NCBI GenBank assembly: GCA_027052175.1
Contig: JALUFE010000077.1
Span: forward strand, 1 to 35,177
Length of the DNA: 35,177 nucleotides
DNA from: Helicobacteraceae bacterium
GTDB lineage: Bacteria; Campylobacterota; Campylobacteria; Campylobacterales; Sulfurimonadaceae
Reading direction: 5' to 3'
Under the pieces are notes generated by a model that was given only the letters and a program-made list of their open reading frames with translations, was not told the DNA's origin and made no database searches. Made by a program: the position numbers and the translations under genes. How positions within the stretch are numbered: position 1 is the stretch's first letter; each line of letters begins with the position of its first letter. Below are positions 5,857-31,382 of the stretch, one piece after another.

Positions 5857-5993
5857 TGTTTACTCTTTTTTGGATGGATGATGACGGTGACGTTGTCATC
5901 TATCTGCTCTTCATAATAGGGAGCTTTTTTGTAGCCGCATCCGTTGAAGTTTAATAAAACTGTAGCTATAATAAGCGGATGAAAAAGGCGCAT
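5853..5993 (-). CDS. Small lipoprotein, LptM/YifL-like
   Basis: 46-aa ORF absent from the track: [46 protein letters not shown]. Short hydrophobic N-terminus, lipobox-like NGC, GCGYKxxPYY resembling GCGLKGPLYFP of E. coli YifL. Its TGA overlaps the nadB ATG (ATGA). Confidence 0.6.
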   Translation of the reverse strand: MRLFHPLIIATVLLNFNGCGYKKAPYYEEQIDDNVTVIIHPKKSKQ

Positions 5994-6416
5994 GATATTC
6001 TCTCTTCCTTGCAAAATCAACCTCAGTTTCGAAAATTACATAACGTTCGTTGTATAGAGAGGATCCTCTCCGTTTTCCTGCCTGCGGTGCAGCGTTTTGT
6101 CGATTTTGGATATATCAAGAACGATACGCTCTTTGTCGTACTCAACCACAACGCCGGCAAACAAGAGTTCGATAATAATATAAAAATGATTAAAGATCTG
6201 TTAAAGAGCGTCAAGATAGAGGAGTGCGAAGGAGTGCGCTTCTCACAGATCAAGGCCTTTGTGACTAACAGACCAAGACGTAAACAAGAGAGAAAAAAAG
6301 AGACCGTTCCTTTTTACGAAGAGCGCTCGCGCGGGGAGTTCGATATTGAGATGATCAAAGATATGGAGCTGAGAAATATCGCTAAAGAGATACGTGAGAT
6401 CGTTAAAAATGGATAG
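5979..6416 (+). CDS. DUF721/DciA-like protein
   Basis: 145-aa ORF with DUF721-like layout (short helical N-terminus, then [33 protein letters not shown]); placed directly before uvrC. Confidence 0.5.
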
Positions 6417-8217: not shown

Positions 8218-8308
8218 GAAGACTTTATATGGATTTGTGATATATTAAGGGCACGAACTGAAATATTTCGTTGAAACGCGATTTGGAAATATATAAGAAG
8301 GTAAAGAG

Positions 8309-8737
8309 ATGGGGAAGATAACACCGGTTGACGAAGAGTTCCGTTTCGATAATGAGGGTGTTCTGGTTAGCCAGACGGATAAAGAGGGTATCATTACCTA
8401 TGCCAACAAACGTTTTCGGGATGTATCCGGTTACACTTATGATGAATTGATCGGAAAGCCGCACAGTATCGTGCGCCATCCGGATATGCCGCGTATTACG
8501 TTCGCGAAGATGTGGGATACGATACAAAGTGCTCAGGTCTTTAACGGCACTATCAAAAATATGCGTAAAGACGGCAGGTACTATTGGGTGGATTTAGAGA
8601 TACTGCCCATAAAAAACGAAGAAAGTCAAATCACGGGATATATAGCTGTGGCCCGTTCTGCCTCAAGAAAAGATATAGAGGAGAACGAAGAACTCTATAA
8701 AAGGATGCGAGAAGCTGAGAGAGAAGGGGGAGCATAA
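8309..8737 (+). CDS. Stand-alone PAS domain protein (Aer-like PAS)
   Basis: 142 aa; TDKEGIITYANKRFRDVSGYTYDELIGKPHSIVRHPDMPRITFAKMW, including the VRHPDMP signature of Aer-type PAS domains; no output domain. Confidence 0.85.
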   Translation: MGKITPVDEEFRFDNEGVLVSQTDKEGIITYANKRFRDVSGYTYDELIGKPHSIVRHPDMPRITFAKMWDTIQSAQVFNGTIKNMRKDGRYYWVDLEILPIKNEESQITGYIAVARSASRKDIEENEELYKRMREAEREGGA

Positions 8738-10404
8738 TGATCATATACAATCATAAGAAAGAGTTTGTCGGTATCGAAGAGAAAGATCTCAAAGCTCTCA
8801 AGCTTTCCAGTCTCGCCGAATTACAAAACGAAGTTGCCGATTTTGCGGATCTTTTTGTCAAAACCCCCGGATTTATTCATAATTTCAAACATGTTCACTG
8901 GATCGACTTTATTAAAAGTGCCGACTCGATAGATGAAAATCGTGTGATTATAAGCGTGAAGGGCCGGAACTTCAAAGCTGTAATCGATTTGCATAAATTC
9001 TATTTGGTTGATGACCCGCAAAAAGAGGCATATGGTATCGTGTTGAGTGCTTTGCGCGAATTGACCAAAGAGGAGAACGAGCGAATTTCCGGTGATCTCG
9101 CACACAGAAGTGTCACAAAGCCGAGTGAACCTGTCTTTTCTGCTGTAGAGGGTGCACAAGAGAGCAAAAAGATCGAAGAGACGCTGAGCCGAGATGAAAA
9201 CGAAATCGAAGAAGAGCCGCTGATGTTCGATCTTGAAGAGGAACCAAAAGAGGCAGCTCCAGTGGAAGAGACGCCGCTGGAGCTTTCTGTGGAAGAGGAA
9301 CCCGCAAGAGTGGAGGAGGAGCTCTTTATTGAGGAGGAAGAAGATAAATTCAAAGACTATCATTTTGATCCTGAACTTGCGGCAAAAGAACTGGGCTTAC
9401 CGACGGATCTTGTAGAAGAGTTCATTCAAGATTTCATAGCACAGGCTCGCGAGTTCAAACCAGAACTGTATGAAGCGCTGGATATGGGTCGTATCGACAA
9501 TCTGCGAATGCTTTCGCATAAACTCAAAGGGGTGGCCGCAAATCTGCGGATTGAAGATGCTTTCGATGCGCTTGTGACTATCAACACTTCCGACGATATC
9601 GGTCTTGTCAAAAGAACGCTCGACCGTTTCTACAATATCATCATTAAAAAACTTGCCGGTGAAGAGATCAAGAGTGTCGAAAGGCCAAATGCAGCCGTTT
9701 CGAACGAGCAAGCGAAAGCAGAGGAAGATGCGATTACTCTAGATTTGGATGATCTCACGTTGGAAGCACCGCAAGAGATGAGCGTAGAAGATGTAGAGCA
9801 TACACCTCAGGCGGAGGAAGAGAAAATTGAACTCGATTTTGATGAGGATGGTCTCTTCATTGAAGAGAGTGCACCCTCATCTTCACTGGAAGGGACACAG
9901 CCTGATATTGAGGGTAAAGAGGAAGAACCTCCAACTCTTCCACTCAAGGAAGAGCCGGAAGAGCCGCTAGAACTCGACGTAGGTGATGATGAAATAAAAA
10001 GCGGCGATGCCGATGTCGTACAAGAAGAGCAGTCGCCAGAGGAAGTTCTTGAAGTTCCTATAGAAGCAGAAGAAGAAAAGCAGGAAGAGAGAGATCTATA
10101 TCTCACTATAGACAAACGGCGCATAGCAAGTGAGCTTGGAATAGATATCGAAGTATTTGAAGAATTGCTGGATGACTATGTGAATGATATGGAAGCCGGA
10201 TTGCTGCAACTTGAAGAGTTGCTTGCAAAAAAAGAGCAAAGCAGTGCCAAAAAGCTTGCTTTACGTCTCAAAGGGATGAGCGATAACATGCATATGAGTG
10301 CCGTTGCGGAAGAGTTTGAACACTTCATCAAGGATGAAAACGAGGATAAAGCCATGCTATTGCAAAAAATAAAAGCTCAAATAAACTCGATTGAGAGGAT
10401 GTAA
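8737..10404 (+). CDS. Hpt-domain phosphotransfer protein, two Hpt-like modules and acidic linkers
   Basis: First module MLSHKLKGVAANL (His codon 9517-9519); second module LALRLKGMSDNM lacks the His; Glu-rich low-complexity linkers. Confidence 0.75.
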   Translation: MIIYNHKKEFVGIEEKDLKALKLSSLAELQNEVADFADLFVKTPGFIHNFKHVHWIDFIKSADSIDENRVIISVKGRNFKAVIDLHKFYLVDDPQKEAYGIVLSALRELTKEENERISGDLAHRSVTKPSEPVFSAVEGAQESKKIEETLSRDENEIEEEPLMFDLEEEPKEAAPVEETPLELSVEEEPARVEEELFIEEEEDKFKDYHFDPELAAKELGLPTDLVEEFIQDFIAQAREFKPELYEALDMGRIDNLRMLSHKLKGVAANLRIEDAFDALVTINTSDDIGLVKRTLDRFYNIIIKKLAGEEIKSVERPNAAVSNEQAKAEEDAITLDLDDLTLEAPQEMSVEDVEHTPQAEEEKIELDFDEDGLFIEESAPSSSLEGTQPDIEGKEEEPPTLPLKEEPEEPLELDVGDDEIKSGDADVVQEEQSPEEVLEVPIEAEEEKQEERDLYLTIDKRRIASELGIDIEVFEELLDDYVNDMEAGLLQLEELLAKKEQSSAKKLALRLKGMSDNMHMSAVAEEFEHFIKDENEDKAMLLQKIKAQINSIERM

Positions 10405-10407
10405 ACG

Positions 10408-13400
10408 ATGAAATTAGGATTAAAAAACAGACTTCGCCTTATCAGTTTGGTGCCTTTGATTATTCTTTTTAGTGTCGCGAGTTATTTCGTTTACAGTTCG
10501 TATCAGAATTATGTCGATGCAGATAAACTGAAAAACAAGCTTGTCGAAAACAAATACCTTAACGATCTGCTTACCAACGTAGCCCGTGAGCGTGGTATGA
10601 GTGCTATGTATGTCGGAAAAGGATCGGATGTCATTTTTGCTTCACTCTCGAAGCAGCGTACCTTTACGGACAAGGCGGTTGCGAAATATTTGGATTTTCT
10701 CAAAAACAACAGTGAAAGCGGAAAGTCGCAGAAACAGAGTTTCATCCAAAAATTCAAGACAAGCGTGGCCGAGTTCAAAAAGATACGTCCGCTTGTAGAC
10801 AAGCGCAGCGTCGAGTTTGAGAAAATGTTCGATACCTATACGAAAACACAGAAACTGCTTATAGATGAGACGCAAAAGCTGGGGATCAAAAGTATCGATC
10901 CTGTTATTTCCAGGCTTTTTAGCGTGTATATTACCTTTATTAAAGCCAAAGAGTACAGTGGAATAGAACGGGGCTACGTTTCTTATTTTCTTTCCAAAAA
11001 AGCACCGATGGAAGAGGAACAAATCAGCCGTCTTATCTCTATTATCGGGAAGGCGGATGCGATAGCGTACGACGCCATCACGGACAAAAATCTCAAAGCG
11101 AAACTCGATGCTATCTTCGAGAATGAAGATGCGAAAGAGCTTTTTGACGATATCAATGCGGAAAGAACGAATATCCTTGCGGTGGCAAAAGACGGAGATT
11201 ACGACATCAGTGCGGGTATCTGGTTTGCTATGATATCCGAAAAGATCAAGCTGCTTACACAAGCGGAAAAGTTGCTTTCTGCGGCGATGGATGCCAGAGC
11301 GGCGGAGATCCAGCAGGATTCCATACAGATTCTTGCGATTGCGGTAACGATCTGGCTTATCGCCATCCTTTTGGCGGTTCTTGGTTATTTCATCTCCAAT
11401 CAGATAGCCAGAAACATTAGAGGATTGCAGGAAATTCTTCTCAAAGCGGCAGAAGATACTGGCGGTGCGGAAAGCTTCAATCTCGATCTCGATACTGCTG
11501 AGGGAACGGAACAGGCTTACAGACTGCTTGAGCGTATTATCGAACAGACGAAAAAAGATAAAGAGGCGGCGCTTGAAGCCAATGAAGCAAAATCGATGTT
11601 CCTTGCAAATATGTCCCATGAAATTCGTACACCGCTTAACGGTATTGTCGGATTTACAGAGTTGCTTCGAGATACGGAACTGAATGAAGAGCAGATGGAA
11701 TTTGTCGAAATTATAGAAAAATCTTCGGAAAATCTGCTTGAGATCATCAACAATATTCTCGATCTCTCCAAGATTGAGAGTAACAAGCTTGAGATCGAAG
11801 ATATCGTCTTCAATCCTATCGAAGAGTTCGAAAGTGCCGTCGAAGTGTATGCGGTCAGAGCAAGCGAGAAGAACATCGATCTTGGATGTTTTATCGATCC
11901 GCGACTGGAGGCTCCGCTCAAAGGGGATCCGACCAAACTTAAAGAGGTTATCATCAACCTGCTTTCCAACGCTGTCAAATTTACCAGCAGTGGAGGATCG
12001 ATCAATGTCGACATCCGAGAAGTGGAATCGCATCAGGAAGGATTCAGACGTGTAAGATTTGAAGTTCAAGACAGTGGTATCGGGGTAACGAGTGAACAAA
12101 AAGCACGGATATTCGAAGCTTTCTCGCAGGCGGATACTTCCATTACACGAAAGTATGGGGGGACAGGTCTTGGTTTGACGATTTCGAGTCGCTTTATCGA
12201 GTTGATGGGCGGTCAGCTCGATCTGCATTCCGAACCGGGAGAAGGAACGACTTTCTTCTTCACGATCGATTTTGAAGAGGTTGAGAGTGAGATAGAAACG
12301 AAGGAAGGTAAGTTTGGCTATTTGAGTGCACTCATTCTTGAAAACCCTCACAGAACGAAACAGCAGGACAAGTATCTCCGAGAATATCTCGATTATTACG
12401 GTGTCAAATATACGGTCTCAGACAGTGCGGAACGGATGAGTGAACTTGCGAAAGCCAAAAAATACAACCTGATGTACGTCGATTTTGATTATCTCAGCGG
12501 GGAAGAGCTCGTGGAATGTTCCGAGCTCTCGCCATCCCTTGTGCTGTTGACAAAATCGTTCAACATGAAACAGATAGAATCTCTTGGAATCCATCCGTAT
12601 AAAACCCTGTACGAGCCGCTGACGACATCGAAAGTCAAACGTTCACTTGAAGACTATAAAGAGGAAGAGAAGGAAGTCGTACAAGAGGAGCACAAAAAGG
12701 TCGAGGAGAAACCTAAAACAATCAAATCCTTCAAAGAGGGTGAAGCGAAGTTCAAAGCCAAAGTTTTGGTAGCTGAAGACAATATCATCAATCAGAAACT
12801 CATCAAGAGGACGTTGGAGGATCTCGGCCTGGAGGTCGGACTTGCAAGCAACGGCCTTGAAGCGTTCCAAAAAAGAAAAGACGGTGATTACGATCTGATC
12901 TTTATGGATATTCAGATGCCGTTCCTCGATGGTGTTGAAGCGACGAAGGAGATACTGGCTTGGGAGAAGGAGTTCGGGAAGAAGCATGTACCTATTGTCG
13001 CATTGACTGCAAATGCTCTCAAAGGAGACAGAGAACGTTTCCTTGCAGAGGGACTGGACGAATACACCACAAAGCCCCTTGTCCGCGATGAAATCGTAGC
13101 CATTCTCAACCATTTTCTTGCGGATCATATTGTTTATATAAACGAGGAAAACGAGCAGGGACAACTGCAAAACGAGTCGGTAGAAAAGGTTGACACAGAA
13201 GGGGAGATAAAAGCGCGCGAAGCGGTGGAAAATGAAGAAAAACCGCAGGTCGAAGAAGAAGTTGCCGAAGAAGAGGAAAAACCCGAAATTCAAAAAGAGC
13301 CGCAGCATAAAGATGAGACGGCAGAGGAGCAACTCGAAATAATAGAGGAAAAACCCGAAATTGAAGAAAAACTGCAGTTCGAAGAAGAGAGCGGGCAGGG

Positions 13401-13980
13401 CGGAGAAATTTTACAAGAGTCTGAAGTTGAAGAGGAAGAAACATCCCAGGAGGAACTTCTCGAAACCCTGCAAGAGGATGAAAAAGAGAAACTCGAAGTT
13501 CAAGAAGAACCGTTAGAACTGGAGAGTGAAGAGAGTCATAAAGAGTTGACTGAAGCACCTTTGCAAATAGAAGAAAACATCGAGATAGAAGAGGAACACA
13601 CCTCTGAAAATGAAGAAAATATTTCAGAGGAAAAATACACGAAAGATGTGCTTGTGATCAAGAAAAGTTCACTGGAGACGAATCTGTTTTGCAAAGTCAT
13701 AGAAAGTCTCGATTACGAATGTGACAAAGCTGCCGGATTGGAAGAGGGCATAGAGAAAACAGGAGAAAATGGATACAAAGTGATTGTAGTCGATGCGGAG
13801 CTTGATGGTTTTGATATAGATAAACTAAAAGAGAGTACGTCGGATTCGAAAATAGTCGTCGTCAGAGATTCACTGACCTCACTCGATGAAAAAACAAAAG
13901 AGGAAGCCGATGAAGTGATCAACAATTTCGCCAATCAAGACACGTTGCGATTAGTTTTAGAAAAATTCATAAAAGGATAA
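10408..13980 (+). CDS. NIT-domain hybrid sensor histidine kinase with several receiver modules
   Basis: 1190 aa; TM, NIT-like region ([17 protein letters not shown]...), TM, H-box [15 protein letters not shown], HATPase (DSGIGV, GGTGLGL), canonical REC VLVAEDN...[13 protein letters not shown]...TKPL, flanked by two REC-like degenerate modules and a Glu-rich stretch. Confidence 0.9.
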
Positions 13981-13983
13981 TGG

Positions 13984-14361
13984 ATGAAGAGAGACAACCT
14001 GGTTGTACTGGCAGTCGATGACGATATGATCAATCTCAAACTGCTGAAATCGATGCTGCTGAAAACCGGAAAAGTGAAGGAGGTCATTGAAGCGAAAAAC
14101 GGAAGTGACGCGATAGGTGTGCTCAAAAGTAGAGAAGATATCGACTTGATACTACTGGATATCATAATGCCTATCATGAACGGCATAGAGGTGCTGAAAG
14201 TCGTACGTGCCGATGACAGTCTCAGACAGTTGCCTATTATCGTACTGACAACAGATGAAACGAAAAAGGCGGAAGCGCTTGATCATGGTGCCAATGGATT
14301 TTTGACAAAACCGATCCGCCACGATAAGCTGGTCAAACAAATCTCACAGATGATAGTCTAA
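13984..14361 (+). CDS. CheY-like single-domain response regulator
   Basis: 125 aa; VLAVDDDMINLKLL, DLILLDIIMPIMNGIEVL, LTTD, FLTKPI. Confidence 0.95.
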   Translation: MKRDNLVVLAVDDDMINLKLLKSMLLKTGKVKEVIEAKNGSDAIGVLKSREDIDLILLDIIMPIMNGIEVLKVVRADDSLRQLPIIVLTTDETKKAEALDHGANGFLTKPIRHDKLVKQISQMIV

Positions 14362-14372
14362 AAGGAAGGCAC

Positions 14373-16790
14373 TCAGACAAGTGCCTCTTTAAGGACCTCT
14401 TCTATACGGGTGACAGGGATGATTGAAAGCGTCTCTTTCACTTCATCAGGGATTTCGTCGAGATCTCTTTCGAAATTTTTTTCCGGAATAAGCGCTTTTG
14501 TTATTCCCGCTTTATAAGCGGCAATAAGCTTTTCTTTGAGTCCGCCTATTGGCAGAACGTTTCCACTGAGACTTACTTCGCCTGTCATAGCGACATCTCC
14601 GCGCACTTTTTTGGAACTGAGGATGGATGCGATGGCTGTTACCATCGCTATACCTGCACTCGGACCGTCTTTTGGGGTCGCGCCGTCTGGAACATGCAGA
14701 TGCAGATCATAGCGTTTGTAGACTTCACTTGGATTCACCTTTTGTTTCTCTTCAAGCTCTTTGACGGTTTTTGGTATCTCTTTTTGAGCTATGGGGAGTT
14801 TTTTGGTATCGATGAGTGTTTTTACGACGCTAAATGCGATGCGGGCCGATTCTTTCATAACATCTCCGAGACTTCCTGTGAGCTGCAAGGAGCCTTTGCC
14901 TCGGATACGGATGGATTCTATCTTGAGAACATCTCCGCCTACTGCCGTCCACGCTAGACCGTTGACAATGCCAACAACAGGCTTTTTGTCGATCTTTTCT
15001 ATCTCGAATACGGTTTTGTCAAAATATTCTTTGAGATTTTTTAGAGAAATGGAAACCTTTTTCGTCTCTGGGTTTTCAAGGAGCTCTTTTGCGACTTTAC
15101 GGCACATCTGTGCTATTTTTCGACGAAGATTTCTCACACCGGCCTCACGTGTGTAGCTGTGAATCAGCTCTTTGAGTGCCGAGTCGGTAATGGAGAGTTC
15201 ACTCTTTTTGAGTCCATGCTTTTTTAACTCCTGCGGGATGAGATAGCGCTTGGCGATCTCGAACTTCTCTGTCGGTGTATAGGAGCTGACGAAGATGAAT
15301 TCCATTCTGTCGCGAAGCGGTGCGGGGATACGTCCCACATCGTTCGCAGTAGCGATAAAGATAACCGAGCTTAGATCGATGTCGAAGTTGAGATAGTAGT
15401 CCCGAAATGCACTGTTTTGCTCCGGATCGAGGATCTCAAGGAGTGCCGAGGTCGGATCGCCTCTGTGGGAGATACCTACCTTGTCGATCTCATCAAGCAC
15501 CATGACGGGATCCATCTCTTTGGCATCGATGAGCCCCTGGACGATACGTCCGGGCATTGCACCGACATAGGTCCGTCGGTGTCCGCGAAGCTCATTGACA
15601 TCTTCCAATCCGCCAAGGGCGATGCGTACCAAACTTCTTCCGAGCGCTTTGGAGATGGAGTTGGCAAGTGAGGTTTTCCCTACCCCGGGAGGTCCTGCAA
15701 AACAGAGGATCGCTCCCTCTGCGCTTGCATGTTTTTTGCCGCGAAGTTCAAGTAACTCTTTGACGGCGAAGTATTCGACTATGCGCTCTTTTGGTTTTTC
15801 AAGAGAGTAGTGATCCTCATCAAGCTGTTTTTGCACATCTTTGATATCAAGCGGCTTGGAAGAGAACTCACCAAAGGGGATTTCAAGCACGAAATCGAGA
15901 TAGGTCTGTGTCATACTCGCATCACTGGAGTCAGGATGCATTCTGGCATAACGCTCTATCTGCTTGGCGATCTCCTTGTAGGCATCTTCGCTCATCTTCT
16001 CCTTTTTGGCTTCGAGTTTCTCCCAGTATTCGTCTATTTCGTCTTCACGCGCGGTATCGACACCGAGTTCCTTTTGGATCTCCTTGAGCTGCTCTTTGAG
16101 GAAGTACTCTTTGTTGACCTGCTCGATCTTGGAGTGAACTTTGGAGCGTATCTCTTTTTGGAGTTTGTTTGCTTCGATCTCCTCTATGAGGATGTCTATA
16201 AGCAAAAAGAAGCGGTTTTCGGTATTTTCTTCTATGAAAAGTTTATAAGCCTGATCTTTTTTGAGTTTGAGTGTCGAGCTGATGAGATCGATGATACGGT
16301 TATAATCGTGATTTTCTTCGATGGTGCGTAGCAAATCGGGCGGGAAATAGTTGGTGATCTGCGAGAGCGTTCGCACTTTCTCGCGAACGATCGCAAGAAT
16401 CGCTTCGGCTTTGAGATCGTCCAGCGGTGTAGGGATGATCGTATCGACACGCGCTACAAGCGGATCGGTAGAAACCGGCATAAGTATTTTTGCACGAGCA
16501 AGCCCTTGAAAGAGTATTTTCACCCTGCCGTCAGGCAGTGAAACTTTGCGCATGATGTTTCCTACCACCCCTGCATCGTAAATCGCATCGAATGTGCGTT
16601 CACCTTCATGTCCCGGTTTTGTCGGAGTGACCATTACAAGCGTGCTCTCATGCATCGCCTGGGTGACGGCTTTGATGTTGGCGTCATCTCCCAAAAAGAT
16701 TGGAGAGATCATAAAAGGGTATAAAAAGATATCATCTTCGGCGATGACGGGAATATCTGCCGGAAGTTCTGCATAGTTGCTTAGTTTCAT
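14373..16790 (-). CDS. lon: ATP-dependent protease Lon
   Basis: 805 aa; Walker A GPPGVGKTSL, Ser-Lys dyad region GATPKDGPSAGIAM. Confidence 0.98.
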   Translation of the reverse strand: MKLSNYAELPADIPVIAEDDIFLYPFMISPIFLGDDANIKAVTQAMHESTLVMVTPTKPGHEGERTFDAIYDAGVVGNIMRKVSLPDGRVKILFQGLARAKILMPVSTDPLVARVDTIIPTPLDDLKAEAILAIVREKVRTLSQITNYFPPDLLRTIEENHDYNRIIDLISSTLKLKKDQAYKLFIEENTENRFFLLIDILIEEIEANKLQKEIRSKVHSKIEQVNKEYFLKEQLKEIQKELGVDTAREDEIDEYWEKLEAKKEKMSEDAYKEIAKQIERYARMHPDSSDASMTQTYLDFVLEIPFGEFSSKPLDIKDVQKQLDEDHYSLEKPKERIVEYFAVKELLELRGKKHASAEGAILCFAGPPGVGKTSLANSISKALGRSLVRIALGGLEDVNELRGHRRTYVGAMPGRIVQGLIDAKEMDPVMVLDEIDKVGISHRGDPTSALLEILDPEQNSAFRDYYLNFDIDLSSVIFIATANDVGRIPAPLRDRMEFIFVSSYTPTEKFEIAKRYLIPQELKKHGLKKSELSITDSALKELIHSYTREAGVRNLRRKIAQMCRKVAKELLENPETKKVSISLKNLKEYFDKTVFEIEKIDKKPVVGIVNGLAWTAVGGDVLKIESIRIRGKGSLQLTGSLGDVMKESARIAFSVVKTLIDTKKLPIAQKEIPKTVKELEEKQKVNPSEVYKRYDLHLHVPDGATPKDGPSAGIAMVTAIASILSSKKVRGDVAMTGEVSLSGNVLPIGGLKEKLIAAYKAGITKALIPEKNFERDLDEIPDEVKETLSIIPVTRIEEVLKEALV

Positions 16791-17554
16791 CGTTTACCTC
16801 GTAGTGTTTGTTTGTTGTTTGTGGTGTCGTTGTCGTCCTGGATGGAGTTTCTCGAAACAACGCTTTGCGTATCAGGGATCAAGAAAGCGTACCAGCTTCC
16901 TGTTCCATCCCCTTCGAACCACTCTCTGTACCAAGGAGTTCGTGCCCGCTCGACTTTGCTCCAGTTGATCCATTTTTCTTTGATTTTATCGCGGTAGAAT
17001 CTTGCCGCTTTGGGCTTGTCTATGCGCTTGTAGAGTGAAGCTATCGCCTCGTCGAGCACCGCTTTGGAGAGCAGTAGGCGTGTGAGCATTGTATCGACGA
17101 CATAGTAGTGCATCGAATGGGGATACTTTCTTTTAAACGCTTGTGCTTCCGCTATCGCTTCATCTATAAGTGCCTGATCACGTCTGGGATTGGGCAAAGA
17201 GAGATATTTCGCTTTGACTTTCAAAAATTCTGCCTCCTCTTTGTCGCTTTCGTTGGCTGCAAAGCGTCTGACATATTCGTCAAGATAGTGTTCTGCCAGG
17301 AGGTACTCTTCGTTGTACATATGCGCCAGCGCCATTATAAACGTAGCCTGCGGCAACAGCGGTGAACCTATATGCTCTCCCTGCAGCGAACTGTAGTAAC
17401 TGTCAGCTTTGTCGAGATCACTTTCGGAGATAGATTTGATCATTTTCGAGTACCAGTATATCGCCGGTTTGTTATACTCTTCGACATCTTTGGAACAAGA
17501 TGACACGAACAATACGACAACCAAAATGCTAAATAGCTGCAAAATATATTTCAA
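16787..17554 (-). CDS. bamD: Outer-membrane assembly lipoprotein BamD
   Basis: TPR-type lipoprotein; lipobox VSSC; ALAHMYNEEYLLAEHYLDEYVRRF. The track extends to 17647, but a TTG at 17554 with upstream AAGGA gives a normal lipoprotein signal peptide. Confidence 0.85.
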   Translation of the reverse strand: MKYILQLFSILVVVLFVSSCSKDVEEYNKPAIYWYSKMIKSISESDLDKADSYYSSLQGEHIGSPLLPQATFIMALAHMYNEEYLLAEHYLDEYVRRFAANESDKEEAEFLKVKAKYLSLPNPRRDQALIDEAIAEAQAFKRKYPHSMHYYVVDTMLTRLLLSKAVLDEAIASLYKRIDKPKAARFYRDKIKEKWINWSKVERARTPWYREWFEGDGTGSWYAFLIPDTQSVVSRNSIQDDNDTTNNKQTLRGKR

Positions 17555-17607
17555 AAAGTATCCTTCTTTTTTTGATGATATTCTATCGAAAATAAATACA
17601 ACAAGTA

Positions 17608-17643
17608 TTAAGGGCACCTCTAAAAACCCTAAATTGCCCTTAA
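17608..17643. repeat. Perfect 9-bp inverted repeat TTAAGGGCA ... TGCCCTTAA
   Basis: Arms 17608-17616 and 17635-17643, upstream of bamD. Confidence 0.6.
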
Positions 17644-17757
17644 TCAACGCTCCTGGAAATATGGATCAATAAATAAAATATAATTTTTCTGATAACACAA
17701 TATGCTTTTTCAGACTGAAAATGGACATATTCAGCTTATATTAAGCTTAGTTGAGAG

Positions 17758-17840: not shown

Positions 17841-20800
17841 GTGAGTAGGATGAATGTTTTGATATTGATGAGTATCATCATACTGTATAAGCTTTTCTTG
17901 GGAAAAGAGAAAAGCAGATACATGGGGTCCATTTTGCTGATTGCTTTGCTCTATGAAGCAGCAGCGGCGGATAGCTTGGTAAGGCGGACGGGGAGTCAGT
18001 TCGATACTGCCGAAGAAAGAATTTCCAACGGTTCTATGTATATAACAAGCAGTGATTTGGAACTTGTGTATGACGGTCACAAACAGGCTGTCGGGATTCG
18101 ATTTCCAAACATCACTGTTCCAAAAAATGCGACGATAACGAGTGCATATATACAATTTCATGCCGACGGTACGACAACAAGTACTCCGGTGAATCTAACC
18201 ATCAAAGGAGAAGCGTCGGACGATGCGAGCAGTTTTGGTTACTCATACCATGATGTAACAGGGCGGAGTACGACAGGTGCGGTCGTATACTGGGATGACA
18301 TACCGGCATGGAGCCATGATAACGATGCCGGGAGCGCGCAACGCACTCCCAATTTGAAAAGTATCGTTCAGGAGATCGTTAACAGAGGCGGATGGTCGAG
18401 CGGCAACGCTATGGCGTTTATCATAACCGAACATGGTGACAACGGAAGCAGACTAAGAAGAGCGGAGACGCACCATGGAGACGATGAGTCACCGACACTC
18501 TACATCGAGTACACGACGGGCGGTTCTTCCGGGTGTGGCGGTTGTGACTGTTCTTTAGATAAAGAACCTGACAATGACAGCTCGCCGGGCGTGGCGATCC
18601 CGGGGCTCGATGGAGCCACGAGCGATGCCAGCAGATGTATCAGCGGAAGCTCGGAGAATGACGATGAGGATTATTATCATTTTACGGTACAAACACCGGG
18701 ACAGCTCGATATCACCACCTCTTCACCAAACGGACATGACTATCATATGGAGATTGTGTCCGATGTGCAAGGAACGCTTTTAAGCTACGATACGGATCAA
18801 AATCGCAATCTTTCCTATACGCTTTCGGCAGGAGAGAAGATTACGGTTCTATTTAAGGAGAGTGGTGACGACCTTGACGAATATCAGGCGAATTTCACTT
18901 TTACCAAGAGCAATACCGGCTGTGACGGTTGTGACTGTTCTTTGGACAAGGAACCTGACAATGACAGCAACCCGGGTGTCTTGATACCGGATCTGGATCA
19001 GGTCGATCACAATGTAACAACTTGTTTTTCCGGTGAATCGGAAAATGACGACAAGGATTACTACCATTTCACGACCGCGTCTGGCGGTATCTTGCATGTT
19101 TTGACATCGTCTCCAAACAATCATCGCTATCATATGGAGATCCAATCAAACAAGCAGGGAACGCTTCTGTCGTACGATACGGGTGAAAATAGAGACCTGA
19201 CCTATACACTTACTCCCAACGAAAGGATCACCTTCCTTTTTAAAGAGACGGGTGACGATAAGGACAAGTATCAGGCCAACGTAACGTTTACTGTAAGCGA
19301 GTACATTGAAAGTGCCGATGACATCTGTTATGTCGGTGATCCGGTAACGAGCGGGTTGTGTACCGGCATTGGAGGACTTGACTGTACGAAAACGATTACC
19401 TTGAAAAGTCTGGACAACATTGACGATGTAAAAGCGATCATCGATGCATCGAGTCTGATGAGCGGAAATTTGTTCAGTGACTGTGGGGTCGACGGTGTGT
19501 CGGGCACAGACAAAAACGAAGATGAAGATGGAGCCTGCTATGTCGACAACGATATCAACATGGGGCCTGTAGGTATGTTCAACAAGGGTGTGCAGTACAA
19601 TGTAGCTTCCAATATGCAACAAGACGAAAATCATAGTATTTACGATTATGCATTGTTTGATATCAGCTTTTTCAAAACGGAAACGCTCTATGCGACTTAT
19701 ACGAAAAACGGACAGAAATACAGAGGCAAAGTGAAGCAGTGTTCCAAATGGCACTGTACAAACTTGAGTAAAGGCGATCGAGATTTTACCATAAGAAATC
19801 CGGAAAATACGAGAAATATCTATGGGAACTATACGGTTATAGGCAATGAAAACCTCTGTACCGACCATAATGAAGACGGAACGTGTGTAGGCGATACGAA
19901 AACGACGAGCAACTCTCATCCCTCTTTGTATGTGGATGTGGACGACAATGCCTCTACCGTCAATTCATCGAGTTCCACGCTTTCCATTCCATCCGGTGCC
20001 AAAGTGGTATGGGCTGGTCTTTACTGGCAGGGAACGATACACAACAGTGACAACGATGATGATCCGTACGATGAAGATTTCGGACGTGACAATCTATGGG
20101 TCGAAGGCAACAAAATCCTCGGTGCCACCAATGTCGACGACGGGCATAAAGAGATCGATCTGCTTGCGGATAACAACGGATACGGTGCCTACAATGCCTG
20201 TAAAGTGAAATTCAAAGTACCGGGTAAAGGATATGTCGAGGTTGCAGCCGACCAGTTGGATTTTTATCAACTCGGATACGGCGGATATGCGGATGTCACA
20301 AAACTGCTGGATGCAGATAACCCAAACGGCGTCTATACGGTTGCGGATATCAAATCCCAAACCGGTAGAGAGACGGATCATGGGAACTATGCGGCCTGGT
20401 CGCTTGTCGTGATATATAAAAAGGATGACGACAAATTTAGAAATATCTCTGTATTTGACGGGTATGTCACTGTAAACAGTGCATACAGAGGTGAGCTTCA
20501 TATGAACGGTTTTCTTACGAGAAAAGCACCGCCCGTAAGATCGAAGCTGGCGTTTTTCACACTCGATGGGGACGGCGGAAGAAACTCGATATCCGTTGAC
20601 GATCAGAAGATATCCAACGCAAACCATCCGGCGGATCGCTTTTTCAACTCGACTATCAGCAGCGACATCGTCAGAGATCCCGATTATGTAAGTGCGAGGG
20701 TCGATCTGGATTACATCGACTTGGTCGATGTTCTGAAGCCTTCACAGACAAGTGCCGTTTTGAAACCGCGCTCAAAGGGAGATAGATATACCGGATCCTA

Positions 20801-23369
20801 TTTCATTATGTCCGCGGACTTGCGTCAAGTGGATATCTGTTACGATTATACCTATGGACAAAGCGGTGCGTACAGGACGGCACCGAGTATCAAACCGGCC
20901 ATTATTCAAGGCAGTTTCAACAGCGATCCGATCGATGTTAAGCTCTACTTTAAAAATCAGGAAAACTCGGATATAGAGATTAAAAATCTTTATGTCAACA
21001 TCGATCCTATCGACAGTAACACGACCTATAAGAGTAACAGTACCTACGTGACGCCGCCAAAAGGTCAAATGACTTTTGTGCCCGACAGCGGAAGAGTCAC
21101 TTCATCTACACGGGATGACAACATTTCCATTGGCAACGGTAACTTGAATAGTTTGGATTACTTTTATGTGTATTATTCGTTGAAGCATTCTCAGCCGGAT
21201 ATCAATGCGAAAATTCATGCAACGCTTCATTTCGATTTGGTTGTAAATACCGGTAATGAGGTAATTACATTAGGCAACTCACAGGCAGATCTTCAAACTA
21301 TGCAGCCGTGTCAGAACAGCAATGTCTATCAGCCGGCACCTGGATACTTCAATGTCGTTCACAAAGCATTTTACAAAGATGATTCGAATTACTACTTTAA
21401 TCTTCCGACGCAGATTGTCGGGAGATATACCGACAAGTTTTTAGTCGAATCGATGGATCCGGATGATTTGAACAAAACCAAAACCGGCGTAAAAGACAAA
21501 AACGTAACAGTAGAGATGCTCGATGTATCCGGATTTCACTATTCGACGGCGACCTGTACGGATTCCAATGCCACTGTCATAAGCGGTCAGCCCATCACCG
21601 TTATATTCAATAATGACAATACGACATTCACTGTTCCGCTTGACAAGTCTCAAATGTCATCATACGGCTTTTTTGAGAGGGCGATTCAAAATGCCGCCTT
21701 TAGAATGGGGTATTATATCGATGACAATGCTTCGCAGAGAGTGTATACCTGCTCCCGCGACAACTTCGCAATCCGCCCCGAAGCGTTTCATATGCACCTA
21801 AGTGACAGCAACAAATCAAACGGGAACATCTCGGTACCAGAGGGAAGTGCGCAGCAGAATATCGTCGCGGAGTACGATTACGATATTGATGTCAATGCGA
21901 CGACATACGGCAGCAGCACTCCGGCGAAAGGTTATACAAAAAGTTTTGATGGTGTGTCTTCGACAAACGACAGTTACGGATTCAAATGGAGTAGTTCCAA
22001 AGACGATTCGGTCTGTAACGATACAAGCGACAAGAACGCTTCTCTCACATTCATTGATGGAAAAGAGAGCAATAAAGTCAGCGTGGACCAGGTGGGTGAG
22101 TACACTCTACTGCTCCGAGATAGAACGTGGACGACGGTAGACTCCAATCTCTCTTTTATGACGCATCATATTGGAGGATATTTTAAACCGGGTCGAGACT
22201 GTAAAAACGGTTCGACGATTGTCGGAAGCGAGAACGATACAAACAATCTCAACGGATGCGATATCAGCAGTGATTATGCGGCTGAGCATTACAGCGATTA
22301 TTATCTCAAAGTTTTGCCGTATCGGTTTGAATTGGGAGAGATCGCCGCATCTTTAGGGTTGAAAGATCTAAGCGTCGGAAACAACGCTTTTGTGTATATG
22401 TCCGATGTCACCGATGCAAACGATCGAAATATGTCTTATCATCTCTATGGAGCCGTAAAAGCGGTTGGAGGGAGTGGTACGGTAATGAGCAACTTTGTCG
22501 ACGGTTGTTACGCCGAAGATCTGGATCTGGATCTTGAGAACGACTATGAGGGCTCAAGTGCGATGCAGTACTATATAGATACAAACGATACCGCCATCGC
22601 GGTAACCGTGCATGAAGGTAACATTACAAAAAACGATACCGATACGCTTATGCAAAAGGCTTTTTTCGCTAAAGGCGGAAAGGGCAAGGCGCAAATCTTT
22701 TTGCGTTACAATATAAAAAGAGCCAAAGATACGGCGATCAATCCGGTCAAAGTCCGGTTTGGTGATTTCAATGCAACCTTCCATACTCCGCCAAGTGGAA
22801 ATATTTATGCGAAGAGCGGCAGTGCATATAAAATTTCCGGCCGAAAAAACATGAACGATACACTCTATTTTTATTATGCCAAGGCGCATGTAAAAGATAC
22901 GAATATAAAAGGAAACAACGGTAATGCGATAGGGCATTACGAGGTGTATTGCTACGGAAACGGCTGTAACAAAAATTATCTGCAGGATGAGCTGTATGGA
23001 GGAAAATCGTCCAACAGTGACGATCCGCGATGGTGGATAAACAGCAAACATACGGACAATTTCGGTAAGATACACAAGGTCGTTCAAAAAAAAACACCCC
23101 TAAAAGTGAAAGTGACGACAACACCGACAGGAAACGCTACAGAAACGATCGGACTGCAGTATGACGGGACAAAAGGGTATCCTTACAGAACCATCATGAA
23201 GATAGTTCCCGACGACTGGCTTGTCTACAACCGATACAACGCCAACGCCGATCATAATGAATTTGAGGTCAAGTTCGAATCGGCCGGAGGAAAATGGGCG
23301 GGGAAAGATGAGTCGAACAGTTCGACAAGGACATCGAATGCCGATAAAAATAGGATTCTACAATGGTAA
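17841..23369 (+). CDS. Very large secreted modular protein, candidate pilus-associated adhesin (MshQ/PilY1-like role)
   Basis: 1842 aa; hydrophobic N-terminus; beta-rich N-terminal domain (ITSSDLELVYDGHKQAVGIRFPNI...IVQEIVNRGGW); tandem CxGCDCSLDKEPDNDS modules; IPSGAKVVWAGLYWQG domain; Asp/Asn-rich throughout. GTG 17841 or ATG 17850 start. Confidence 0.7.
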   Translation: MSRMNVLILMSIIILYKLFLGKEKSRYMGSILLIALLYEAAAADSLVRRTGSQFDTAEERISNGSMYITSSDLELVYDGHKQAVGIRFPNITVPKNATITSAYIQFHADGTTTSTPVNLTIKGEASDDASSFGYSYHDVTGRSTTGAVVYWDDIPAWSHDNDAGSAQRTPNLKSIVQEIVNRGGWSSGNAMAFIITEHGDNGSRLRRAETHHGDDESPTLYIEYTTGGSSGCGGCDCSLDKEPDNDSSPGVAIPGLDGATSDASRCISGSSENDDEDYYHFTVQTPGQLDITTSSPNGHDYHMEIVSDVQGTLLSYDTDQNRNLSYTLSAGEKITVLFKESGDDLDEYQANFTFTKSNTGCDGCDCSLDKEPDNDSNPGVLIPDLDQVDHNVTTCFSGESENDDKDYYHFTTASGGILHVLTSSPNNHRYHMEIQSNKQGTLLSYDTGENRDLTYTLTPNERITFLFKETGDDKDKYQANVTFTVSEYIESADDICYVGDPVTSGLCTGIGGLDCTKTITLKSLDNIDDVKAIIDASSLMSGNLFSDCGVDGVSGTDKNEDEDGACYVDNDINMGPVGMFNKGVQYNVASNMQQDENHSIYDYALFDISFFKTETLYATYTKNGQKYRGKVKQCSKWHCTNLSKGDRDFTIRNPENTRNIYGNYTVIGNENLCTDHNEDGTCVGDTKTTSNSHPSLYVDVDDNASTVNSSSSTLSIPSGAKVVWAGLYWQGTIHNSDNDDDPYDEDFGRDNLWVEGNKILGATNVDDGHKEIDLLADNNGYGAYNACKVKFKVPGKGYVEVAADQLDFYQLGYGGYADVTKLLDADNPNGVYTVADIKSQTGRETDHGNYAAWSLVVIYKKDDDKFRNISVFDGYVTVNSAYRGELHMNGFLTRKAPPVRSKLAFFTLDGDGGRNSISVDDQKISNANHPADRFFNSTISSDIVRDPDYVSARVDLDYIDLVDVLKPSQTSAVLKPRSKGDRYTGSYFIMSADLRQVDICYDYTYGQSGAYRTAPSIKPAIIQGSFNSDPIDVKLYFKNQENSDIEIKNLYVNIDPIDSNTTYKSNSTYVTPPKGQMTFVPDSGRVTSSTRDDNISIGNGNLNSLDYFYVYYSLKHSQPDINAKIHATLHFDLVVNTGNEVITLGNSQADLQTMQPCQNSNVYQPAPGYFNVVHKAFYKDDSNYYFNLPTQIVGRYTDKFLVESMDPDDLNKTKTGVKDKNVTVEMLDVSGFHYSTATCTDSNATVISGQPITVIFNNDNTTFTVPLDKSQMSSYGFFERAIQNAAFRMGYYIDDNASQRVYTCSRDNFAIRPEAFHMHLSDSNKSNGNISVPEGSAQQNIVAEYDYDIDVNATTYGSSTPAKGYTKSFDGVSSTNDSYGFKWSSSKDDSVCNDTSDKNASLTFIDGKESNKVSVDQVGEYTLLLRDRTWTTVDSNLSFMTHHIGGYFKPGRDCKNGSTIVGSENDTNNLNGCDISSDYAAEHYSDYYLKVLPYRFELGEIAASLGLKDLSVGNNAFVYMSDVTDANDRNMSYHLYGAVKAVGGSGTVMSNFVDGCYAEDLDLDLENDYEGSSAMQYYIDTNDTAIAVTVHEGNITKNDTDTLMQKAFFAKGGKGKAQIFLRYNIKRAKDTAINPVKVRFGDFNATFHTPPSGNIYAKSGSAYKISGRKNMNDTLYFYYAKAHVKDTNIKGNNGNAIGHYEVYCYGNGCNKNYLQDELYGGKSSNSDDPRWWINSKHTDNFGKIHKVVQKKTPLKVKVTTTPTGNATETIGLQYDGTKGYPYRTIMKIVPDDWLVYNRYNANADHNEFEVKFESAGGKWAGKDESNSSTRTSNADKNRILQW
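18534..19308 (+). repeat. Tandem duplication of a ~129-aa module in the large secreted protein
   Basis: CGGCDCSLDKEPDNDSSPG... (from 18534) and CDGCDCSLDKEPDNDSNPG... (from 18921), 387 bp apart, both running through YHxxTxxxGxLxxxTSSPNxHxYHMEI...GTLLSYDTxxNRxLxYTL. Confidence 0.9.
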
Positions 23370-23770
23370 AACGTTTTGCCTTTTCAATGATTGAACTTGT
23401 TTTCGCCATTGTTGTCGTAGCTGTTACGGTTCTTTCTCTGCCGCTGATGACGGATGTAACCTCAACGAGTAGTGCCGACACTATGAAAGAGGAGGAGGCA
23501 ATCTTCGAAGCCTATGTCAAAGCGTTGGAAGTTACAGATGGGGTATACGGTGCCCTTTCGAACGAAACAGACACCACTTTGACGACTGGGAGTGGATATG
23601 CGCAGGGATTGAAATACCCTTTCAAAGTCGATGTCACGGTGACGCGAGGATCGGGATTTGGCGACCGGGATGCAGGTGATCAAAATATCTCTTTGGTGAG
23701 CGTGAGTGTAAAAGACAGTGGCGAAGTGGTGGCGAAACTCTACGCGTACGACTTCAACGTAACGAGGTGA
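23363..23770 (+). CDS. Prepilin-like protein
   Basis: 135 aa; FSMIELVFAIVVVAVTVLSLPLM class III signal; start overlaps the upstream stop by 7 nt. Confidence 0.75.
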   Translation: MVKRFAFSMIELVFAIVVVAVTVLSLPLMTDVTSTSSADTMKEEEAIFEAYVKALEVTDGVYGALSNETDTTLTTGSGYAQGLKYPFKVDVTVTRGSGFGDRDAGDQNISLVSVSVKDSGEVVAKLYAYDFNVTR

Positions 23771-23773
23771 TAG

Positions 23774-24715
23774 ATGTGTAGAAGCAAAAAGGGATTTACT
23801 TTCATAGAGATGATTTTCGTACTTATCATACTCGCCATTATTGCCAAATACGGTGTGGAGTTTCTCGCGCAGGCATATAGAAACTATCTCTACGAAAAGA
23901 TAACGAACAAAATCGCAAATACAAGTTCGAGTGCCGTAGAATTCGTCGCCAAACGGCTGCAGTACAGGATACGCCCATCTGTCATAGTGCGAAAAGGGAG
24001 CACGACCGATTTCAGGGCGTTGGAAGGATTCAGTTTTACCGGGAGTGCGTCGGAGGATTACAATGTTCTTGAATGGATCGGATATGATATAGAGGGATTT
24101 AGAGGTGATGAGAATGCCACGCCTTTGTGGAGTGGAGTCATCGACAAGCAGGCTTCGTTGAACGATGGAGCGCATCTCGTTACACCCGGCAGTGATCTGG
24201 ACGCTGTAGATGCACTTATTAAGGTGCTCTCCAATGGTGATTCGTCGCTCGATCACGCAGCGATCTATCTGTTCGCTGCGGAAAACGACATCAGAAGCGG
24301 TTTTGGATGGTATGGAGGCGATTCGATTGTGGATCAGAACTTGAGTTATGCGATGCACCCTGTCAAAAAAGCGGGGAAAACGCTCTTCGATCCCGCCGTA
24401 GGAAGTTTTACCGGCCTTTTCAACGATCTTACGGCAAAAGGCAAGTGGGATGCGCGTTATTACCTTGCATGGAGTGCGTATGCCGTAAGTCTGGAAGACG
24501 GTACGTTGAAGTTCTATTACGACTTTCAGCCCTGGGAGGGAGAAAAGTACACAGACGGTAAAAATGCGACGATCTTGACTCATGTCGGTACATTTAAAAT
24601 GATACAGAAAGAAGGGGTTGTGAAGATTCAGATCTGTACAGCCAACGATATGAACGGCTCCGGAACGATGAATATAGGCAGGTTTGCACAATGCAAAGAA
24701 AAAACAATCTATTAA
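23774..24715 (+). CDS. Prepilin-like minor pilin, MshO/PilW-like position
   Basis: 313 aa; KKGFTFIEMIFVLIILAIIAKYGVEFL. Confidence 0.75.
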   Translation: MCRSKKGFTFIEMIFVLIILAIIAKYGVEFLAQAYRNYLYEKITNKIANTSSSAVEFVAKRLQYRIRPSVIVRKGSTTDFRALEGFSFTGSASEDYNVLEWIGYDIEGFRGDENATPLWSGVIDKQASLNDGAHLVTPGSDLDAVDALIKVLSNGDSSLDHAAIYLFAAENDIRSGFGWYGGDSIVDQNLSYAMHPVKKAGKTLFDPAVGSFTGLFNDLTAKGKWDARYYLAWSAYAVSLEDGTLKFYYDFQPWEGEKYTDGKNATILTHVGTFKMIQKEGVVKIQICTANDMNGSGTMNIGRFAQCKEKTIY

Positions 24716-25167
24716 AACGGCGGCAACGCCCAGGTATAGCGATGATAATGGCCATCTTCGTGTTGGTCGTACTGGCGACCATTATGGCTTTTACGATACA
24801 GATGACCGTTAAAACGGGCAAAAGAGCGGCGGATGTCTATGTCGAAGAGCAGGCGAATCTCTTTGCAAAAAATGCCGCGGAGTACACTGTTTATAAAATC
24901 AGTAAAGACAGAAACTGCTCTTTGACTTCGTTCAATACCACTTTGAAAACTTACTACAACGTCAATGTCAATATCTCTTACATTCTCTCCGATACGACTG
25001 CCGCTTGTCCTGTAAGCAGCATCGCTCTCACTTCGGTAGGGGCTCCGGACGGTTACGCTTTCGCCAAAATAGACGTGACGGTTACAGTCAACAATCAAGC
25101 GGTCGACACGGAACCGGTGCAAATTTTCAGACGTTATTTGGAGGATATCACACCGTATGTGTATTGA
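24691..25167 (+). CDS. PilX/MshP-like minor pilin
   Basis: 158 aa; RPGIAMIMAIFVLVVLATIMAFTIQ without the canonical Glu5, as in PilX/MshP-type proteins. Confidence 0.65.
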   Translation: MQRKNNLLKRRQRPGIAMIMAIFVLVVLATIMAFTIQMTVKTGKRAADVYVEEQANLFAKNAAEYTVYKISKDRNCSLTSFNTTLKTYYNVNVNISYILSDTTAACPVSSIALTSVGAPDGYAFAKIDVTVTVNNQAVDTEPVQIFRRYLEDITPYVY

Positions 25168-25286: not shown

Positions 25287-25829
25287 ATGAATGTTTCGTT
25301 CACTGGAAGACACATTGAACTCACAGACGCGATAAAAACACATCTTCAAGCTGCTGCAGAGTCTTTAAGCAAATTCAATATGGACATTATCTCTTTTAAT
25401 GCCGTTGTCGATTCACAGCAGAGAAAAAGCAAAGAACACTTTACGGTGGAGTTTACGATCAACCTCGCACACAAGGGAACGGTCGTTATCAAGCAAAGAG
25501 ACGAGGATCTTCATGCCGCTATCGATATGGCTGTCGATCGGGCGCAAAAAGCGCTTCGCCGAATTCATGACCGAGAGACGGATCATCAAAAAACAGGTCT
25601 CAATGTCGCCAAAGCCGAAGCCAACGAAGGCATCAACATGCATGAAGCCAAGCAGAGTGAAGAGGATGAGATTATTCCCGTAGAGCTTGAACTTTATAAA
25701 CCAAGAGAGGTCGAAGACGTGCTTGAGGAACTCAAAAATTCTGACAAGATGTTCGAGATTTTCGTCGACAATGCGGGAAAAACGCGCGTTCTGTACAAAA
25801 GAAACGACGGAAAATTCGGCCTGTACTAA
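25287..25829 (+). CDS. hpf: Ribosome hibernation promoting factor, long form
   Basis: 180 aa; MNVSFTGRHIELTDAIKTHL N-terminal domain and KMFEIFVDNAGKTRVLYKRNDGKFGLY C-terminal domain. Confidence 0.92.
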   Translation: MNVSFTGRHIELTDAIKTHLQAAAESLSKFNMDIISFNAVVDSQQRKSKEHFTVEFTINLAHKGTVVIKQRDEDLHAAIDMAVDRAQKALRRIHDRETDHQKTGLNVAKAEANEGINMHEAKQSEEDEIIPVELELYKPREVEDVLEELKNSDKMFEIFVDNAGKTRVLYKRNDGKFGLY

Positions 25830-29567: not shown

Positions 29568-31382
29568 ATGAGAAAAAACAACCTAAAACGACTTGTATTT
29601 GCAGCACTTCTTCTGTTTGGAGTGGCGGCGCTGAATCTTTACTTTTTTTATTTTAAAATGCTTAAAAAAGAGGAAGAGGCCAAAAGATATGCGATAAAAG
29701 AGGAAGTGTCCCGGCTGCAAACGATACTGGATCGTACGATAGACGATAAACAAAAAGCCCTCAACGCGATTGCACTCGCTTTGGAGTTCGACAGCAACAT
29801 CACCAAGCGTGTAGCAGCGGGAAAAATTCCGGAGAATTACGCCGTCTCTTTGATGCAGCAGCTGCGACGTTTCAGCAACTATAAAAATATCTGGATGCAG
29901 CTTTATGACAAAAAGGGACGTATGCTCTTTTATCAAAGCTGGGTGAAAGAGCAAGATGGAGCCGGAGAGATCGTCCGAATGCCCTTTCCCAAGCGCAGAA
30001 TCGTTGACTATATCGATGTCGATGTGTATGACTTGTGCATCAATTCGCTACTCAAACTTCAAGACGAAAGAGGGGAGGGGGTCGGCGCTCTCAATCTCAA
30101 GGCGCATTTCAACTCCATTTCCGCGGAACTTACAAAGTATGGTATCGATTCGGTTGTTGTTGTCGACAAGACGTACCGTACACGCCTTTCGCAGCCTTTT
30201 ACAAACAAATTCATCGGTGATTATTATATAGCGAATCTCGATGCTAGCAAGGAGAAGCTCGATTTTTTAAAGAATTTGGGTGTGGATCGCTTGATGCGTC
30301 CCGGTTATCTCGTAATCGGCGAACAGATCGTTCTCTCCTATCCTTTGAAAAACAGAGAGGGCCGGAGTATCGCATACTACATACTTTTTGAAAATGCCGC
30401 TTCAATAGTCGCCAAGCTTGAAGAGAAGACGTTTATAGAGGCGATGAAGATCGCATTTGTCACTCTCTTTTTTGTCATTCTTGCAGTCTTTTCGTATGAA
30501 GCTTATCTCAATCGCGCGCAGAAGCGTTACTACAGAAGCATTATAGACCACAGCCGCAATGTCATCGTGATTACGGACGGCAGGCAGATTATCGATGTCA
30601 ACGAGATGTTTTTGGAATATTTCGGCGTTGATTCTCTCAAAGCGTTTGTCAACAGCAAGAAGAGGTGTCTGCGAGACTATTTTGTAAAAGAGGAGGGCTA
30701 TCTCGATATCGATGAAGCGGGAGAGAAGTGGTTCGAGTATGTCTATCGTAATCCGAACAAGAAGTACAAAGCCAAGCTCGACATAGAGGGGAAGATATAC
30801 TATTTTCTTGTAAGTGTTTCCAAAGTGAAAGCGGATGAAATGCTCTACAGCATCGTCATGGCCGATATAACTACGGAAGAGAACTATAGACGCAAACTGG
30901 AAAAAACAGCAGTGACGGATCCTCTTACAGGCATATACAACAGAGGATTTTTCCAAGAAAGACTCAAAGAGGAACTTCTTTTTGCGCAACGATATTCAAG
31001 GCCGCTTTCGTTGATGGTGATGGATATCGACCATTTCAAAAAGATCAATGACAAATTTGGTCATGATGTGGGAGACAGAGTTCTTGTCGAGATTGCACAG
31101 CTGATTTCCGAGCAGATACGTCCTTCAGATATTTTTTGCCGGATCGGCGGAGAGGAGTTTGCGATAATTCTCCGTGAAACATCACTCAAAGATGCGGTCC
31201 GCGCAGCGAAAAAAATCAATCGTCTCATTCGTGAAAACAAAAAAATGCTCGTTCCCGTTACCGTAAGTATCGGTGTTGTAGAGTATATCAAAGGGGAGAG
31301 CGAGGCAGATATTTACAAGAGAGCGGATTACGCTCTTTACAAAGCGAAAACTTCAGGGCGTGATCGCGTGGTCATTGGATGA
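29568..31382 (+). CDS. Diguanylate cyclase, periplasmic sensor + PAS + GGDEF
   Basis: 604 aa; two TM segments, PAS-like region (HSRNVIVITDGRQIIDVNEMF), active-site CRIGGEEFAIIL. Confidence 0.92.
   Translation: MRKNNLKRLVFAALLLFGVAALNLYFFYFKMLKKEEEAKRYAIKEEVSRLQTILDRTIDDKQKALNAIALALEFDSNITKRVAAGKIPENYAVSLMQQLRRFSNYKNIWMQLYDKKGRMLFYQSWVKEQDGAGEIVRMPFPKRRIVDYIDVDVYDLCINSLLKLQDERGEGVGALNLKAHFNSISAELTKYGIDSVVVVDKTYRTRLSQPFTNKFIGDYYIANLDASKEKLDFLKNLGVDRLMRPGYLVIGEQIVLSYPLKNREGRSIAYYILFENAASIVAKLEEKTFIEAMKIAFVTLFFVILAVFSYEAYLNRAQKRYYRSIIDHSRNVIVITDGRQIIDVNEMFLEYFGVDSLKAFVNSKKRCLRDYFVKEEGYLDIDEAGEKWFEYVYRNPNKKYKAKLDIEGKIYYFLVSVSKVKADEMLYSIVMADITTEENYRRKLEKTAVTDPLTGIYNRGFFQERLKEELLFAQRYSRPLSLMVMDIDHFKKINDKFGHDVGDRVLVEIAQLISEQIRPSDIFCRIGGEEFAIILRETSLKDAVRAAKKINRLIRENKKMLVPVTVSIGVVEYIKGESEADIYKRADYALYKAKTSGRDRVVIG

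Follow-up and report, generated by a model that had tools for sequence, protein, structure and literature searches.

A diverged MshQ-type protein and three minor prepilins as the probable tip set of an MSHA-type pilus in Campylobacterota

Operon layout and prepilins

A secreted protein of 1842 residues is encoded here directly ahead of three prepilin-like proteins, which raises the question of which pilus or secretion system the four proteins serve. The window, that is, the whole stretch of 35,177 nucleotides analysed, lies on contig C77 and holds no assembly ATPase gene, as a preliminary description of this DNA had stated; T2SSE matches were found on other contigs. The open reading frames also agree with that description on the overlap between the giant gene and the first prepilin gene (7 nt) and on the overlap of the two later prepilin genes (25 nt between PP2 and PP3), with a gap of 3 nt from PP1 to PP2. 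The operon and its conserved neighbours are arranged as follows:

16787..17647, minus strand: BamD/YfiO-like lipoprotein, a divergent conserved neighbour outside the system (synteny)
17841..23369, plus strand: giant secreted MshQ-type protein, 1842 aa from a GTG start (ORF; homologues in 43 of 60 relatives)
17922..17969, plus strand: probable Sec signal peptide MGSILLIALLYEAAAA (read from the sequence by eye)
23363..23369, plus strand: ATGGTAA, the giant's Trp codon and stop overlapping the PP1 start codon
23363..23770, plus strand: PP1, minor prepilin with Glu5 in PilV/MshD-like position, 135 aa (sequence motif)
23774..24715, plus strand: PP2, large minor prepilin with Glu5, PilW/MshO-like, 313 aa (N_methyl profile)
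24691..25167, plus strand: PP3, prepilin-like protein without Glu5, PilX/MshP/GspK-like, 158 aa (sequence and 26 homologues)
25287..25829, plus strand: hpf, a conserved neighbour outside the system (Ribosomal_S30AE match, synteny)

The giant has alternative in-frame starts at 17850 (ATG) and 17922 (ATG), the latter opening the signal peptide as read from the sequence (MGSILLIALLYEAAAA/DS). Elsewhere in the window, a GGDEF diguanylate cyclase (160 bits, 29568-31382) lies a few kb downstream of the operon; the MSH-type ATPase of contig C120 has an MshEN domain. A large NIT-domain hybrid sensor kinase (10408-13980) is encoded upstream, and a purD RNA motif (76.4 bits) occupies 121-254 on the minus strand.

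As a set, PP1, PP2 and PP3 carry the class III signal and the Glu5 of type IV minor pilins, from which the PilX/GspK type is exempt. PP2 (25.3 bits) scored above the N_methyl cut-off of 21.2; PP1 scored 13.3 bits, under that cut-off, and has the motif G/FSMIE or A/FSMIE. PP3 had no match in the family scans. Its N-terminus reads RPG/IAMIM, with the Glu at +5 missing, likewise in its homologues, and this is a trait of PilX/GspK-type pilins. These are not chance open reading frames, since most of about 100 loci contain homologues of all three types. The order giant-PP1-PP2-PP3 is retained in nearly all of these loci, which span Sulfurimonas, Sulfurovum, Sulfuricurvum, Hydrogenimonas, Sulfurospirillum and others and lie mostly between lon/bamD and hpf. 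Loci of the Sulfurovum type (e.g., L141, L151, L158, L177) have a fourth prepilin-like gene after PP3, encoding about 211-230 aa.

Identity and architecture of the giant

Direct family scans gave no significant Pfam or NCBIfam match for the window giant, which did not reach the PF20419 cut-off. Comparison with relatives placed its conserved part in the last ~550 residues, with CSRDNFAIRP near the start and TNRRIxW at the end. A profile of window-like members aligned in hhalign with Campylobacterota proteins matching PF20419 (prob 100, E 2.6e-60, 445 columns); this target comprised eleven Campylobacterota proteins retrieved with PF20419, nine of which matched it when scanned as 600-aa proteins. 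Among 34 direct C-terminal homologues of the giant, three matched DUF6701 (PF20419), including L086 (E 9.5e-23, the best) and L082 (E 4.5e-08). We take DUF6701 to be the C-terminal domain of MshQ. Given the hhalign result and the PF20419 matches among the linking proteins, sequence comparison identifies the giant as a diverged MshQ-type protein, its tie to gammaproteobacterial MshQ going through PF20419. The set is conserved through much of the phylum, yet had escaped notice because its signature domain has diverged past detection.

The different domain mix claimed in the preliminary description thus applies to the N-terminal modules, which do differ; the C-terminus carries the MshQ domain after all, in diverged form. 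No match to the PilC/PilY1 beta-propeller family was found in the giant (Pfam, NCBIfam) or in the 34 C-terminal homologues (Pfam). A PF20419 search of the genome itself found no match, and none was found in the control genomes either. Neither a PDB sequence search with the giant's C-terminal profile nor a tblastn of plasmids for gammaproteobacterial MshQ returned a match. The following parts of the giant were distinguished:

18534..19301, plus strand: two tandem beta-sandwich repeats, residues ~232-487, with a PPC/collagen-binding-like fold (weak Pfam PPC, AlphaFold, Foldseek)
19767..21560, plus strand: central beta-rich region, residues ~643-1240, conserved in relatives (BLAST, alignment, AlphaFold)
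21735..23366, plus strand: diverged DUF6701 (MshQ C-terminal) domain with CSRDNFAIRP near its start (hhalign; profile match spanning this interval)
23337..23366, plus strand: conserved C-terminal tail NADKNRILQW, a candidate docking strand (consensus TNRRIxW; low model confidence)

The tandem repeats scored 15.7 bits with Pfam PPC, below the cut-off, and were modelled by AlphaFold with pLDDT mostly 80-95; their best Foldseek match was 5iku, the tandem collagen-binding domain of ColG (E 7.9e-10). A model of residues 643-1842 had a mean pLDDT of 84.6, with low confidence in this single chain for the tail (model residues 1181-1200). Foldseek of the C-terminal part retrieved only generic Ig-like/adhesin-type beta-sandwiches and no named pilus-docking fold.

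The tail is of interest for its likeness to that of PilY1, for which a strand added to PilX by an eight-residue C-terminal stretch has been predicted (PMC11046646, PMC13190605). By analogy, a minor pilin is probably the docking site of the giant's tail. The C-terminal Trp might have been retained merely through the overlap of TGG with the PP1 start, an explanation that we rejected, as tandem upstream copies and giants with no PP1 behind them keep the Trp too. In loci of the Sulfuricurvum group (L067, L069, L147, L149, L154, L160, L167, L173), DYTPATR or similar replaces the NRRIxW tail, and the overlap of giant stop and PP1 start differs. Giants linked to msh genes carry other tails, which are RGVRLLR-like.

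The two halves of the protein appear to evolve differently. N-terminal parts vary freely among relatives, which display cadherin, DUF11, Calx-beta, Big_9 and PPC-like modules. Meanwhile, distances between the C-terminal domains track those of PP1-3 once Lon and HPF are removed (partial r 0.46-0.52, permutation p 0.001), against a partial r of 0.13-0.19 for the central part, a contrast to which alignment noise in that part could add. One species of the same genus (L051) has tandem giants at 4788-9890 and 10053-15365, about 40% identical over their N-terminal parts, after which their 3' DNA shares 99.0% identity over 2301 nt. Behind the first copy lies what is left of a PP1 start, in truncated form (MVNRNGFSMIELIFAI). 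Together with the near-identical 3' ends, this remnant suggests that the docking end was duplicated or gene-converted. We regard it as possible, if somewhat improbable, that Campylobacterota MSHA pili have exchangeable tips, in which a constant DUF6701 dock is gene-converted between tandem copies, N-terminal binding modules are swapped, and a TNRRIxW-type tail strand donated to a minor pilin sets the fit between giant and pilus.

An MSH-type machine on another contig

The genome encodes T2SSE ATPase matches on five contigs (C130, C120, C45, C85 and C36). Contig C120 holds an MSH-type locus in msh order, mshI-J-K-L-M-N-E-G, in which the I, K and N labels were assigned by gene order and size. 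Its MshL scored 279.9 bits against the TIGR02519 equivalog cut-off of 250.2. The locus also encodes MshE with MshEN and T2SSE domains, MshG with T2SSF, an MshM-like AAA protein (AAA_22), an MshN-like TPR protein and a PilO-like J; MshL, MshE, MshG and MshM, the components that mark an MSH system, are thus all present. PilT is encoded on C85 (458.8 bits, cut-off 319.1) and PilD on C21. The type IV pilus machinery for which the preliminary description proposed a genome-wide search, and whose absence would have spoken against its reading, was therefore found.

The C120 locus has no prepilin of its own, which leaves the MSH machine without minor pilins at home. C130 is a type II secretion (T2SS) locus, the C36 locus looks like Tad, and C45 is a second pilus-like locus. 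Three candidates for the mshA major pilin were found on C17 and C95; on C17 (L074), two prepilins lie directly beside priA. Apart from these C17 and C95 pilins, the window set is the sole leftover set resembling minor pilins, an argument that is not airtight, since the assembled genome is 85.7% complete and other prepilins may be missed.

MSH systems have been described as almost exclusively single-locus (PMC6668835). Here the tip genes are on C77 and the machine on C120, and the giant comes first in place of the mshO-P-Q order; in complete relatives, too, tip and machine genes lie far apart. The strongest evidence that the giant and PP1-3 work with the MSH machine comes from gene linkage in L197 (a species of the same genus), L196 and L200, where giant-PP1-PP2-PP3-pilin-mshI-J-K-L-M-N(-E-G) form one run on one strand. 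Each run continues without a break to the end of the region fetched, its genes mostly overlap or lie a few bases apart, and the pilin in L197 is C17-like. The linked set is a second copy, organised as a single locus with the giant still first, so the leading position noted in the preliminary description holds there as in the window. Together with the DUF6701 homology and the type IV pilus machinery, these loci support its proposal of a divergent MSHA/MshQ-type set with minor pilins.

A profile search detected the giant's domain in 93 of 200 sampled Campylobacterota genomes. An MshL-like secretin was present in 89 of the 93 giant-bearing genomes versus 75 of the 107 others, a correlation that partly reflects shared descent. 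Hence the set is not confined to this genome, and adhesion is a role that we infer.

Proposed tip complex and competing readings

Based on these findings, we consider it very probable that the four genes of this operon specify the tip of an MSHA-type type IV pilus, with the Sec-secreted giant sitting on a complex of PP1-3 and the MSH machine working the pilus. PP1, PP2 and PP3, in a presumed order, would together prime pilus assembly as a minor-pilin complex and remain at the tip. Exported by Sec, the giant would attach to this complex via the DUF6701 domain at its C-terminus, with the conserved tail probably contributing as an added beta-strand on a minor pilin. Its N-terminal modules would face outward and may recognise a ligand on a surface, in the matrix or on a cell. 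The MshE/MshG/MshL machine would extend the pilus and PilT retract it. In Vibrio cholerae, a mutant of mshQ, which encodes a putative adhesin, has lost or lowered surface MSHA (PMC7096442), and a tip complex that primes assembly fits this loss.

DNA uptake is the main rival, because the machine also resembles a homologue of the Campylobacter Cts system. Under this unlikely reading, the set would tip a competence pilus, the same machine taking up DNA, with the giant binding DNA or acting as an accessory. In a compact genome of the same order (G212, region L188), mshK-L-M-N-E-G encode proteins of 103-472-198-198-520-392 aa, matching C. jejuni Cts, where CtsD, CtsP, CtsX and CtsE have 472, 202, 195 and 519 aa (PMC8308473); the Cts identity of the L188 machine was read from gene order and protein lengths. 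Moreover, the C17 prepilins adjoin priA, as does the competence prepilin Cj0683 (PMC10046745). However, G212 is not among the giant-bearing genomes and has no PP1-3 in its machine region. A Cts-like genome with no detected DUF6701 giant indicates that the giant is dispensable for a Cts-type machine. In addition, the cadherin, DUF11, Calx-beta and Big-family modules of relatives are frequent components of adhesins and stalks. The machine may serve both attachment and DNA uptake.

A reading of the giant as a type II secretion substrate or a surface-layer-like protein, with PP1-3 as T2SS pseudopilins, is highly improbable. A T2SS is present (GspD 359 bits, cut-off 351), but its locus has at least four pseudopilins of its own, no gsp genes were seen beside any giant-PP cassette in about 100 loci, and the linked loci pair the giant and PP1-3 with MSH genes. 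We likewise rejected C45 as the assembly machine, a scarcely credible partner which does encode an ATPase, a platform protein, two prepilins and an MshL-like secretin (232 bits, below 250), but whose prepilin N-termini are of another type and whose secretin type occurs in 5 of 37 family genomes against 33 for the giant.

Relation to known pili and implications

The proposed MSHA-type tip complex shares with MshD/O/P/Q of Vibrio, Shewanella and Aeromonas the C-terminal DUF6701 domain on a large secreted protein, minor pilins including one without Glu5, the MshL/E/G/M/N machine, PilT, and a locus devoid of PilD. Unlike in MSHA, the giant gene comes first and not last, the locus is split from the machine, DUF6701 falls mostly under Pfam detection, N-terminal modules are different and variable, and some species have tandem giants. 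PilY1 with PilV/W/X in Myxococcus and Pseudomonas also offers a large tip protein with a conserved C-terminal and a variable N-terminal part, a gene adjoining several minor pilins, and a tail predicted to act as a docking strand (PMC11046646, PMC13190605), but the giant has DUF6701 instead of a beta-propeller family match and leads its operon. With Campylobacter Cts, the likeness extends to a prepilin beside priA and to homologues of its secretin, ATPase, platform, AAA and TPR proteins, encoded in the same order. This suggests that the Cts and MSH machines are one lineage and that the Campylobacter DNA-uptake machine shares ancestry with MSHA pili.

Denise et al. reported MSH systems in Epsilonproteobacteria, with MshQ unmentioned in their main text (PMC6668835), and MshQ has been called a component of unknown function (PMC9815625). 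In the literature searched, we found no published description of the Campylobacterota giant and PP1-3 as a tip set.

By these data, DUF6701 tip proteins with their accompanying minor pilins occur across Campylobacterota of vents and sediments, where it matters to attach to sulfur, minerals or animal hosts. Biofilm formation on sulfur by Sulfurovum takes place without flagella, and MshL is upregulated on sulfur in Sulfurovum indicum (PMC10045233). The family also supplies a large natural alignment in which the docking half of the giant can be told apart from its variable half.
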